Positions 39,583 through 45,445 of a stretch of 64,000 bases of DNA are shown here, piece by piece. The stretch is from the NCBI GenBank assembly GCA_003133245.1, contig PKWM01000014.1, positions 1-64,000 of the forward strand, given 5' to 3'. This stretch comes from Rhodoferax sp. (GTDB lineage Bacteria > Pseudomonadota > Gammaproteobacteria > Burkholderiales > Burkholderiaceae_C). Numbering within the stretch: the first letter of the stretch is position 1; every line of letters starts with the position of its first letter. The notes beneath the pieces are model-generated. The model was given only the letters and a program-made list of their open reading frames with translations, ran no database searches and was not told where the DNA came from. Both the position numbers and the translations under genes were made by a program.

Positions 39583-40026
39583 ATGCTTAAGACCTCTGAT
39601 CGTCCCCAGCCAGTGTCCCGTCAGGATTTTCGGGTATTTCGTGAGATTAGCACCCGCTGGATAGACAACGACGCCTATGGACACATCAACAACGTGATCT
39701 ATTACAGCTGGTTTGACACGGCGGTCAACGCCTATCTGATCGAACAGGGTGCGCTTGACATTGAAAGCAGCCAGACCATTGGCTTGGTGGTTGAAACCCA
39801 CTGCAACTACTTTGCGCCTCTGTCTTTTCCGCAGACGGTCGAGGCCGGTCTTCGGGTTGCCCAGCTGGGTGCCAGCAGTGTGCGCTATGAAATCGGTCTG
39901 TTTGCCAAAGGCGCGCCACTGACAGCGGCGAGCGGGCACTTTATCCACGTCTATGTGGATAAACAAAGTCGCCGCCCGGTACCCTTGCCGCTCAATTTGA
40001 AAACTGTTCTGGAGAAACTGGCATGA
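39583..40026 (+). CDS. Acyl-CoA thioesterase, hotdog fold
   Basis: A 147-residue thioesterase of the YbgC/4-hydroxybenzoyl-CoA group that hydrolyses acyl-CoA or acyl-ACP. The active-site region is TRWIDNDAYGHINNVIYYSW (aspartate at about residue 30), then GLVVETHCNYFAPLSFPQTV and SVRYEIGLFAKGAP. The ATG at 39583 is the first in frame after the tRNA-Pro terminator, with AGAAAATCA upstream. It is translationally coupled to the nitroreductase gene (ATGA overlap), and the ABC transporter and pncB follow in the same direction. Confidence 0.85.
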   Translation: MLKTSDRPQPVSRQDFRVFREISTRWIDNDAYGHINNVIYYSWFDTAVNAYLIEQGALDIESSQTIGLVVETHCNYFAPLSFPQTVEAGLRVAQLGASSVRYEIGLFAKGAPLTAASGHFIHVYVDKQSRRPVPLPLNLKTVLEKLA

Positions 40027-40748
40027 GCTCAAATGATATCGAGGCGACGCGCTTGAATGCCGCTGTCGTGGACGCCGCCATCACATCGCGTCGGGCTACG
40101 CGAGCTTTCATCCAAGCGCCGGTACCGCGCCAGACAATCACCGATTTGCTGCAAGTGGCCAGCCGTGCGCCTTCGGGCAGCAACACCCAACCCTGGCAAG
40201 TCTATGTGTTGACCGGTGCCAGCCGTGCGGCTCTGGTGGCCAAGGTATGTGCCGCGCACGACGGGCTGCGTGCTGATCCGGCGCTGGCCAGCGAGTACCA
40301 CGAGCAGTACGACTATTACCCCGAAAAATGGACCAGCCCCTACATTGATCGTCGCCGCGAGAACGGTTGGGGCCTGTATGGTTTGCTCGGCATCGGCAAG
40401 ACTGAAAAGGACAAGATGCATGCTCAATTGCAACGCAATTACAAATTTTTCGATGCACCGGTCGGCCTGATGTTCACGGTTGATCGGGCCATGGGGCGGG
40501 GCTCGTTATTGGACTATGGCACCTTCTTGCAAAGCGTAATGCTGGCTGCGCGGGGCCGTGATCTGCACACCTGTCCGCAGCAGGCCTGGAACCTTTTCAA
40601 TAAGATCATCCTGCCGCACATTGGTGCCGCTGCCAACGAGATGCTGGTCTGTGGCATGGCGCTGGGTTACGCCGATGAAAGTGCATTGGTCAACACTTTT
40701 CATACGCCGCGTGTGAGTGTGGACGAGTTCACGCATTGGTTTGATTGA
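40023..40748 (+). CDS. Nitroreductase-family flavoprotein
   Basis: A 241-residue FMN-dependent oxidoreductase of the nitroreductase fold. SRRATRAFIQAPVPRQTITD and VASRAPSGSNTQPWQVYVLT are the usual FMN-binding segments at the N-terminus, and GYADESALVNTFHTPRVSVD is near the C-terminus. The substrate is unknown; these enzymes reduce nitro compounds, quinones or flavins with NAD(P)H. Start overlaps the thioesterase stop, and the permease gene starts 43 bases later. It could act on the solute carried by the adjacent transporter, but that is only context. Confidence 0.87.
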   Translation: MSSNDIEATRLNAAVVDAAITSRRATRAFIQAPVPRQTITDLLQVASRAPSGSNTQPWQVYVLTGASRAALVAKVCAAHDGLRADPALASEYHEQYDYYPEKWTSPYIDRRRENGWGLYGLLGIGKTEKDKMHAQLQRNYKFFDAPVGLMFTVDRAMGRGSLLDYGTFLQSVMLAARGRDLHTCPQQAWNLFNKIILPHIGAAANEMLVCGMALGYADESALVNTFHTPRVSVDEFTHWFD

Positions 40749-40791
40749 TTGCCGTGCTGTGCTCGCAGTGACGAGTTCATAAAGCAAGCAG

Positions 40792-42648: not shown

Positions 42649-44213
42649 CGTTGCAGGTCAAAGGTCTGGTGAAGCAATTTGATGGTGTTCATGCGCTCCA
42701 GGGACTGAGTTTTGATCTTGGTGTGGGCGAGTGCGTGGCGTTGATTGGCCCCAATGGCGCCGGCAAATCGACTGCGTTTGCCTGCATCGCCGGGCAACAG
42801 CACTTGAACGGGGGCGAGGTCTGGTGGGCCGGTGAGCGCATCGATCATTTGAGTCCGGCGCAGCGACTCAGGCGTGGCGTGACGCGAACCTTTCAGGTGG
42901 CGCAAACCTTCGAGGCGCTCACGGTGCTCCAAAATGTGCAGTTGCTGCTGCAAGCGCCACTGGGGCTGGCGGCCTGGAATCGGCTTGATTCGATGCAACT
43001 CGACCCTGCCTGTGCATTGCTGGCGCAGGTCGGGCTCCAGTCTCTGGCTCATGCTGATGTGTTGGGCTTGCCCTACGGTGCCAAAAAGCGCCTGGAGCTG
43101 GCACTGGCGCTGGCCGGGGTGGCAGGAACGTCAGGCGCGCGGCTGCTGCTGCTGGACGAACCGGCCGCTGGCCTGGCCGGTGCCGAGCGTGCCGACCTGA
43201 TGGAACTGGTGAAGTCGCTGGCGCATGGGCAAGCGGATGCCGACGACACGGCAACGGGTCTAGCCGTGCTCTACAGTGAACACAATATGGACGCTGTCTT
43301 TGGTGTGGCGGATCGGGTGCTGGTGCTGATGGAGGGGTCTTTGGCAGCGCAGGGGTCGTCGCACGAGATTGCCCACAACCAGGTGGTGCAGACGGGCTAT
43401 CTTGGAATGGCTGGGGCGGCAGCTCTGTCGATGCGCCCACCGTCCAAAGGCAGCCCTCACCCCAACCCTCTCCCAGGGGGTGAGGGAGTCGACAGTCTGG
43501 CAGGCGTTCAACTACAACCCGTTCTGGCGGTCGAACACGTCAGCGTCTGGTATGGCGCGGCGCAGGCACTGTTTGACGTATCCTTGCAGGTGGGCCAGGG
43601 CGAACTGGTGGTACTGCAGGGTCTTAACGGCGCTGGGAAATCGACATTGTTGCAAGCCATCATGGGCCTAAGCAACCGTGTCACGGGTGTGATAAATTAT
43701 AAAAATCAGAACATTTCTGCATGGGAACCGTATCAAAGAGCGCAGGCCGGTTTGGGCTATGTGGCCGAAGATCGGCGCCTTTTTACTGACTTGACGGTGC
43801 TGGAGAACCTGCGGCTGGCAGCGCGCCGCCCTGGACCCGATCCGCTGCGGCAAGGGTCCGGGAGCGGCGCTGTGCTCGCCTACGACGTCAGCTTTGATGA
43901 GGCACGGGTGCTTGACCTGTTCCCGGCGCTCAAGCCCATGCTGCACCGCAGAGCCAGTCAAATGAGCGGCGGCGAGCAGCAGATGCTGGCGATCGCCCGC
44001 ACTCTCATGACTTCGCCCTTTTTGCTACTGCTCGACGAACCCTGCGAAGGGATTGCACCGGTGCTGGTCGAGCGCATCGTGGCGGCACTGCTGGCACTGC
44101 AGGCACAGGGCATTTCTATACTGGCAGCCGAGCAGAACTCCCTGCTGGCCAGCCCAGCATCAAGGATTGTTACGCTGGTTGCCGGCCAATTTGACCTTAA
44201 ACTCAACGCATGA
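42645..44213 (+). CDS. Fused LivG-LivF ABC transporter ATPase
   Basis: A 522-residue protein with two nucleotide-binding domains. Domain 1 (about 1-245) is LivG-like: Walker [41 protein letters not shown] (Walker B) and [16 protein letters not shown]. Its signature [17 protein letters not shown] departs from LSxGQ, as in LivG. Domain 2 (about 285-522) is LivF-like: [61 protein letters not shown]. The linker (about 265-285) is encoded by a palindromic repeat and reads [13 protein letters not shown]. Both domains keep catalytic motifs, so one gene product could form the whole ATPase. Start and end overlap neighbours by 4 bases, giving strict coupling with the permease and pncB. Confidence 0.92.
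43454..43486. repeat. REP-like palindrome inside the LivG-LivF coding sequence
   Basis: CCCTCACCCC, twelve bases, then GGGGTGAGGG form an imperfect hairpin. The sequence resembles the CCCTCACCCCAACCCTCTCCC palindromes dispersed as REP-type elements between genes of many proteobacteria. Here it is read in frame as [11 protein letters not shown] and joins the two ATPase domains. The resemblance to REP elements is from memory; the genome copy number has to be counted. Confidence 0.75.
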
Positions 44214-45445
44214 TCATCACCAGTTTGCTCGATACCGACCTCTACAAGTTCACCATGATGCAAGCGGTGTTGCACCAGTTTCCGGGTGCGCGGGTCGAAT
44301 ATAAGTTCAAGTGCCGTAACGCTGATCTTGATCCGGTCACCAGTCAAGCCAGACGACCGCTGGCTGCTTACGTCAACGAAATTCGCGCTGAGATCCGTAC
44401 CCTGTGCAGCCTGCATTTTCAGGATGCCGAGCTGGCGTTTTTGCGAACGCTGCGCTTCATCAAAAGCGACTTTATCGATTTTTTGGGCTTGTTCAAGCTC
44501 AACGAGAAATACATCACGGTCAGTGCGCTGTCTTCGGGCGAGATCGACATTACTATTCGCGGTCCATGGCTGCACACCATTCTGTTTGAAATTCCGGTAT
44601 TGGCCATCGTCAACGAGGTCTATTTCCGCAACACGCAAAAGCTGCCGGATTTGATCGAAGGTCGTAGACGCCTTGACATCAAGATTGGGCAACTGCGTTC
44701 AGCGGGTTTGAGTGATATCAAAATTGCCGATTACGGTACCCGGCGGCGTTTTTCGGTGGTCTGGCATGAAGAAATTTTGCGCGTACTGGTGGCCCGTCTT
44801 GGCACGGCGCAAAGCCCGGGGAATGCCGCTGGCGTGAGCGGCCAGCTGGCGGGCACCAGCAACGTGCTGTTTGCCATGAAGCTCGGCTTGACGCCGCTGG
44901 GAACGATGGCGCATGAATTCTTGCAAGCCTGTCAGGCGCTCGGGCCACGGCTGCGCGACAGCCAGATTTTTGGCTTTGAATCCTGGGCCAGGGAGTACCG
45001 CGGCGACCTTGGCATTGCCCTCAGCGATGTCTATGGCATGGGCGCTTTCCTGCGCGACTTTGACCTGTATTTTTGCAAGCTCTTTGACGGCACCCGGCAC
45101 GACAGCGGCGACCCTTTTGCTTGGGGCGAACGCATGATTGCGCACTACCAACAGCACCGCGTCGATCCGCGCACCAAAACCCTGATCTTCAGCGACAGCC
45201 TGACGGTGCCGCGCATCATTGAGCTGTATCAGCAGTTCAAGGGGCGTTGCCAACTGGCTTTTGGCATTGGCACCAACCTGACCAACGACCTCGGTTATGA
45301 GCCGCTGCAAATCGTCATCAAGATGGTGCGCTGCAACGGCCAGCCGGTGGCCAAATTGTCAGATGCTCCGTCCAAAGATATGTGTGACGATGAAAAGTAC
45401 GTGGCCTACCTGCGTCAGGTATTTGACATCACTCATACGGCATGA
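44210..45445 (+). CDS. pncB: Nicotinate phosphoribosyltransferase
   Basis: A 411-residue cytoplasmic enzyme that makes nicotinate mononucleotide from nicotinate and PRPP (with ATP hydrolysis) in NAD salvage. It opens with [20 protein letters not shown], the family start. The phosphorylated histidine is probably in [15 protein letters not shown] (about residue 225). Further motifs are [46 protein letters not shown] and [12 protein letters not shown]. Length is normal (E. coli 400). The ATG overlaps the ATPase stop (ATGA), so it is co-translated with the ABC transporter. That linkage suggests, but does not prove, import of niacin or a precursor. Confidence 0.95.

Follow-up and report, generated by a model that had tools for sequence, protein, structure and literature searches.

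We find that a five-gene locus of Rhodoferax sp. probably encodes an importer of nicotinate whose binding protein lies elsewhere in the genome. The locus is part of a 64,000-nucleotide stretch (assembly GCA_003133245.1, contig PKWM01000014.1), referred to here as the window, and it is built around an ATP-binding cassette (ABC) transporter of the LIV type. The permeases LivH and LivM are fused into a single protein of 618 amino acids (LivHM, 40792..42648; two BPD_transp_2 stretches, 6.7e-62), and the ATPases LivG and LivF into one of 522 amino acids (LivGF, 42645..44213; two ABC_tran stretches, with an internal ATG at 42645). They are followed by pncB (44210..45445, 411 amino acids), encoding a nicotinate phosphoribosyltransferase (NAPRTase family) that scores above the curated NCBIfam cut-offs of both PRK05321 (573 vs 379 bits) and TIGR01514 (462 vs 269.55 bits). 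A thioesterase gene and a nitroreductase-family gene come first, and all five genes share the plus strand. The data are best explained by a nicotinate importer whose binding protein is encoded at an unlinked locus, for which we propose a gene named SBP04, with a probability of about 0.78; the substrate, the pairing of SBP04 with the permease and the physiological role are all deduced from sequence comparison.

In the proposed mechanism SBP04 would capture nicotinate in the periplasm and hand it over to LivHM, which would form the membrane channel of an importer of the LIV type (hydrophobic amino acid uptake) with nicotinate as its cargo. LivGF would hydrolyse ATP and so energise import, and PncB would convert the imported nicotinate to nicotinate mononucleotide for synthesis of nicotinamide adenine dinucleotide (NAD). 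Given that no de novo NAD genes are detectable in the host, the importer would be its NAD supply route. The first-pass annotation, made from the letters alone, had proposed import of nicotinate, a pyridine derivative or a precursor, and import of nicotinate gains strong support from the missing de novo NAD genes, the co-occurrence with pncB, the catabolic neighbours of related transporters and the distant binding protein.

The window bacterium appears, judging by its gene content, to be an NAD auxotroph incapable of pyridine-ring synthesis. Its genome, 98.6% complete, contains no NadA match and no QRPTase_C/NadC match at 1e-15, and NadB is matched only below the cut-off (372.5 vs 452.75 bits), by a protein that could, from its length and score, be a succinate dehydrogenase flavoprotein. 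We examined a sample of 150 genomes of the window's family (G000-G149, the window genome being G000), in which fragmentary NadA and NadC matches were counted as present. Among these genomes 45 have no NadA match, 41 have no NadC match and 39 have neither. pncB is found in 43 of the 45 genomes without nadA, and nadA in 53 of the 55 without pncB, a complementarity that makes niacin dependence look common in the family. A LivHM orthologue is present in 16 of the 150 genomes, hereafter the window-type genomes, two of them with a fragment at a contig edge; identity is 66-79% in the 15 other than the window's own. nadA is missing from 11 of these 16, as against 34 of the 134 others (p=8e-4). The pncB genes of the family fall into two types, separated by identity to the window's gene (at least 67% vs about 50-57%, full-length matches) and not by a tree, and the window's type occurs in 16/16 window-type genomes compared with 46/134 others (p=2e-7). 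The two types, about 55% identical, coexist in G018, G035, G068, G072, G079, G085, G088, G099, G128 and G147.

A sister form of the permease, at 44-49% identity to LivHM, occurs in 41 of the 150 genomes, and the two forms are never found together (0/57 genomes, at a threshold of E 1e-100 with 8 candidates scored per genome). pncB is present in 40 of the 41 sister genomes. With window-type genomes left out, the sister form is enriched among genomes lacking both nadA and nadC (20/41 vs 9/93, p=1.4e-6). The permease tree separates 40 rows, of window and sister type, from 9 further LivH+LivM pairs found in the window genome (100/100); the 13 rows of window type make up a single clade (100/100) that branches from among the sister rows. 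A binding-protein gene lies directly upstream of the sister transporter, on the same strand, in 31 of the 34 sister loci read, a count that leaves out L180, fetched for pncB only; in L163 it lies further upstream, and in L174 and L184 none is present within the stretch. pncB-like genes stand near the sister cluster in L178, L179, L255 and L261.

The neighbourhoods of the sister form point to nicotinate as well. Across the phylum, 32 of 398 genomes have a relative of SBP04, and the window's family accounts for 9 of them. We compared 54 loci carrying the sister transporter or its binding protein, 34 from the family and 20 around binding proteins (17 from other families), and 27 of the 54 (18/34 and 9/20) match 6-hydroxynicotinate reductase or nicotinate-hydroxylase/-monooxygenase-like queries. 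The name 6-hydroxynicotinate reductase is taken from plasmid annotation (26 records, 60-80%; among the 12 listed, 7 are so annotated and 5 are unannotated). From the plasmid records matched (29 and 23) we opened four regions, and all four contain nicotinate-catabolism genes. Those of the Pseudosulfitobacter and Comamonadaceae plasmids carry hnr, UPF0280, two amino-acid-synthesis genes, the binding protein, the permease, two ATPases and molybdenum-hydroxylase genes. The Roseomonas plasmid region encodes 2Fe-2S and molybdopterin subunits, MarR and an FAD monooxygenase, and that of Agrobacterium vitis 2Fe-2S and molybdopterin subunits, MarR, an Asp/Glu racemase, an alpha/beta hydrolase, a leucyl aminopeptidase and an isochorismatase, which we take to be the gene set of the nic (maleamate) pathway. 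UPF0280 and two 'amino acid synthesis' (PF06684) proteins accompany 6-hydroxynicotinate reductase and the transporter in L274 (4464-6506), in L275 (6673-8879) and in many sister loci, and these proteins likely have a role in nicotinate catabolism.

Could the cargo be a related pyridine, such as nicotinamide, quinolinate, 6-hydroxynicotinate or picolinate, with the pncB linkage reflecting general pyridine salvage? The catabolic neighbours act on 6-hydroxynicotinate too, and quinolinate-binding periplasmic proteins are reported in Bordetella in the excerpts of PMC11452294. Quinolinate, however, would be of no use to a cell without NadC, for which the window genome has no match. Moreover, nicotinate is the substrate that PncB shares with the nicotinate hydroxylases, and it stands at the top of both degradation routes, that of the nic-like clusters (L276, L277) and that of the hnr clusters (L274, L275). 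Two degradation routes that start from nicotinate, taken together with pncB, point to nicotinate as the substrate, and we regard a related pyridine as unlikely.

The window form itself stands outside this catabolic setting. hnr is present in 0/16 window-type genomes, the window genome among them, and in 22/41 sister genomes (p=1.3e-4); the transporter is not located among nicotinate-catabolism genes, its neighbours being pncB, the thioesterase and the nitroreductase. The window form is thus not tied to the hnr pathway, hnr being the one degradation route searched genome-wide.

Where, then, is the binding protein? A LIV/HAAT-type importer would be expected to have it encoded with the transporter, and the window's contig has no Peripla_BP_6 match. 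The first-pass annotation had remarked that no solute-binding protein is nearby and that a distant partner or a direct mechanism would be needed; the absence holds, as all 15 Peripla_BP_6 matches of the window genome lie on other contigs. Among them SBP04, an orphan gene at 7260-8507 of locus L139 (G000:C22), is probably, on the strength of its relatives, the missing partner of LivHM-LivGF. All 54 sister binding proteins compared (50 from genomes and 4 from plasmids, with L272 left out) have it as their best match among the 15, at 52-68% identity and 395-536 bits; the second-best protein reaches at most 99.8 bits. The binding-protein tree groups the window types together (100/100) and separates window and sister types jointly from the 14 others that the window genome encodes (100/100). 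The suggested search for a co-occurring unlinked binding protein thus leads to SBP04, the type of which is present in 57/57 transporter genomes. Its relatives occur in 59 of the 150 family genomes, that is in 16/16 window-type, 41/41 sister and 2/93 other genomes; of the last two, G003 has an SBP-H-M-G-F cluster (L270) and G142 none in the stretch read (L271). Orthologues in the 15 other window-type genomes match at 83-88%, the one in G131 being a fragment. The best match of SBP04 in the PDB is 3i45_A (residues 24-396, E=1e-151), and the next entry scores 1.5e-25. We take 3i45_A to be a periplasmic binding protein from Rhodospirillum rubrum, presumably with nicotinic acid as its ligand. Its PDB title reads 'Twin-arginine translocation pathway signal protein', and a search of the open-access literature gave no paper that names the entry. 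The neighbours of SBP04, named from their translations, are CAP-domain-like, dsbB-like and argA-like genes.

Several observations weigh against a nicotinate importer that is served by SBP04 and feeds an auxotrophic host. No LivH, LivM, LivG or LivF match is found in the 16 kb around SBP04, and no Liv gene lies within 3-4 kb of an SBP04-type gene in the 15 window-type loci read, its own included. Of the 15 binding-protein genes, SBP05, SBP12 and SBP13 share with SBP04 the absence of a full Liv set from the stretch read, and the co-occurrence of SBP04 stands without a valid control from another orphan binding protein. It is therefore conceivable that the nicotinate importer uses another binding protein, or none, and that SBP04 serves some other unlinked permease. 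We consider this improbable, given that the closest permease family lies directly downstream of an SBP04 relative in the 31 of 34 loci mentioned above and that SBP04 is conserved in every window-type genome, a comparison in which no rival orphan was validly included. The branch leading to the window-type permease clade is long (1.49), and the specificity of that clade may therefore have shifted. Within the genomes that have the window's pncB type, nadA is missing in 11/16 with the transporter and 23/46 without, which is not significant (p=0.25), so that the transporter follows that pncB rather than auxotrophy as such. A NadA match is present in 5 of the 16 transporter genomes. Nine of the 39 genomes without nadA and nadC (G001, G015, G029, G040, G065, G093, G102, G113 and G146) have neither transporter form and must therefore obtain niacin in some other way. 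Because the genomes are kin, the p-values given here overstate independence, and no uptake or binding datum was found.

The coupling to pncB recurs beyond the window. A scan of one genome each for 84,980 species gave 23 orthologous LivHM loci at 65-82% identity, in records that include Rhodoferax, Polaromonas and Hydrogenophaga, and 7 distant ones at 31-37%. pncB lies downstream on the same strand in 19 of the 23, and the contigs of the other four (L108, L121, L123, L125) end first. These counts overlap with those of the family sample, and the 37 loci read include three records that appear twice. Within the family, transporter and pncB are linked within 8 kb in 12 of the 16 genomes; in G019 and G083 the 7,631 and 6,997 bases upstream of pncB hold no transporter, and in G110 and G131 the contig runs out. 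The transporter is absent from most pncB loci of this type, many of which are preceded by the thioesterase, the nitroreductase or both. The coupling, which had been called strict, is therefore frequent and not strict. The ATGA overlap with pncB, the conservation of which had been proposed as a check, recurs among the measured loci only in L053; elsewhere the gap between LivF and pncB is 3-60, 189-1,433 or 7,066 bases. In three of the five longer gaps read (L052, L110 at 13358-13711, and L117) an FKBP-like gene, named from its translation, lies between LivF and pncB.

Might this nevertheless be an ordinary LIV-type transporter of amino acids or aromatic acids that has pncB as a chance neighbour? 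Membership of the LIV/HAAT family is evident from the two LivH/LivM-type permease domains and the two LivG/LivF-type ATPase domains. The permease and ATPase matches listed are to general Liv/Urt and other ABC models, with UrtE, UrtD and LivG models at the top for the ATPase, and the nitroreductase neighbour is not specific to niacin. All of these permease and ATPase matches fall below cut-off, and the equivalog cut-offs of LivKHMGF and UrtABCDE are missed (UrtE 274.6 vs 285.8 bits, UrtB 189.8 vs 250.3 bits). A sequence search of LivHM against solved structures gave no match at 0.001. Against an ordinary transporter speak the single pncB type of all 16 transporter genomes, the catabolic neighbourhoods of the sister group and the co-occurrence with one binding-protein family, and we judge it very improbable. 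A chance neighbourhood of transporter and pncB was rejected on the recurrence of the cluster across relatives, and an amino-acid transporter was rejected as the principal interpretation, as the equivalog cut-offs are missed and the contexts of relatives indicate nicotinate.

The two fusions differ in how widely they occur. That of LivH and LivM is conserved, being kept in 36 of the 37 loci read, and the remaining contig stops inside LivH. The fusion of LivG and LivF is local: it is found in the window and in L107 only, with G and F separate in all other relatives in which both are readable (L108, L152 and L154 were excluded as fusions, as their contigs stop inside LivG). In the window a palindromic repeat, a hairpin with a 10-bp stem at 43454..43486, forms part of the LivG/LivF linker, and the linker of L107 (about 9060-9280) has a different, repeat-like sequence at the same place. 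A repeat-pattern search, with a spacing one base off the window's own copy, gave an uninformative count of 2. The two linkers suggest, as a simple explanation, that repeat insertion at the G/F junction made both fused ATPases independently. The LivGF fusion is uninformative on substrate. In L122 (12580-15550) and in L061 LivG is split from LivF by a 2.8-kb block that carries an ABC ATPase gene on the minus strand; the block of L122 has a permease gene on the plus strand as well.

Within the window the genes are tightly packed, and ATGA overlaps at 40023, 42645 and 44210 join them at three of the four junctions; that between nitroreductase and LivHM is a 43-base gap with no ATGA. The two fusions, their joining through ATGA and the overlap of the ATPase gene with pncB stand as first described (42645, 44210). 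So does the thioesterase and nitroreductase pair ahead of the transporter, on which the open reading frames (ORFs) and the Pfam matches agree. The thioesterase (39583..40026) belongs to the 4HBT family, acting on acyl-CoA (Pfam 4HBT_2, 59.5 bits), and its ATG is at 39583, within an in-frame longer ORF that begins at 39442; the nitroreductase-family flavoprotein is encoded at 40023..40748 (Pfam Nitroreductase, 93 bits). The typical order in relatives is thioesterase, nitroreductase, LivHM, LivG, LivF, pncB. L119, L120 and L123 have no nitroreductase match between thioesterase and LivHM, and L115 has neither gene upstream. Many relatives have the thioesterase ahead of pncB, whether the transporter is there or not. 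Nitroreductase homologues of at least 60% identity occur in 68 of the 150 family genomes, and because 29 of those have no pncB match the pair is not niacin-specific; niacin-specific partnership was accordingly rejected. The two genes are probably passengers of the operon; they probably occupied this place first, with pncB and the transporter arriving next to them later. An Rfam search of the window at gathering scores gave a tRNA-Pro (39410-39486) as its sole match, and hence no other known RNA upstream of the operon. Further along, at 48125-50028, a LysR/ModE-type helix-turn-helix domain fused to a PBP-like domain faces an ABC permease-like ORF, perhaps a regulator and a transporter for tungstate or molybdate.

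How does this system relate to those already described? NiaP and NicT, both of the major facilitator superfamily, and NiaX, of the energy-coupling factor type, are niacin transporters that serve uptake for salvage or catabolism; they resemble the window transporter in function and belong to unrelated protein families. E. coli LivKHMGF and UrtABCDE, of the LIV/HAAT family, share its permease and ATPase families, whereas the window system scores below their equivalog cut-offs, has H and M fused and its binding protein unlinked, and has a vitamin as its proposed substrate. In the excerpts of PMC3511419 a 'putative nicotinate ABC transporter' is named in nicotinate-degradation clusters of Azorhizobium, Bradyrhizobium, Rhodopseudomonas and strain SG-6C. 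The sister form stands in a like context, with hnr, UPF0280, amino-acid-synthesis-family proteins, molybdenum-hydroxylase genes, a binding protein, fused LivHM and two ATPases, a likeness of context and not a gene-by-gene comparison with Figure 4 of that paper. The window form differs from those clusters, as far as the excerpts describe them, in being linked to pncB and not to catabolism, in its unlinked binding protein and in its fused ATPases. Exact phrases such as 'nicotinate ABC transporter' lead, in the open-access literature, to PMC3511419 alone. The first-pass statement that no niacin transporter of this type was known to it thus needs qualifying for the alphaproteobacterial clusters. 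As far as our searches of the open-access literature can tell, three things are new: a subfamily linked to salvage, the prediction of an unlinked partner for it, and the fit with NAD auxotrophy.

We somewhat favor a scenario in which a distinct LIV-type subfamily serves NAD-auxotrophic Comamonadaceae as a dedicated importer of vitamin B3. It would descend from nicotinate-catabolism transporters, have lost the link to its binding-protein gene, have joined pncB and, considering the long permease branch, possibly have been retuned for scavenging trace nicotinate. If so, it would be a vitamin importer of LIV fold with a capture protein encoded elsewhere in the genome, and the two would have to meet although their genes are unlinked. 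With neither nadA nor nadC matched in 39 of the 150 genomes sampled, the family would gain a niacin importer that can be put to the test. Annotations as 'branched-chain amino acid transporter' in such genomes would become predictions of vitamin transport, and the exchange of NAD precursors between such bacteria and their neighbours would become measurable.

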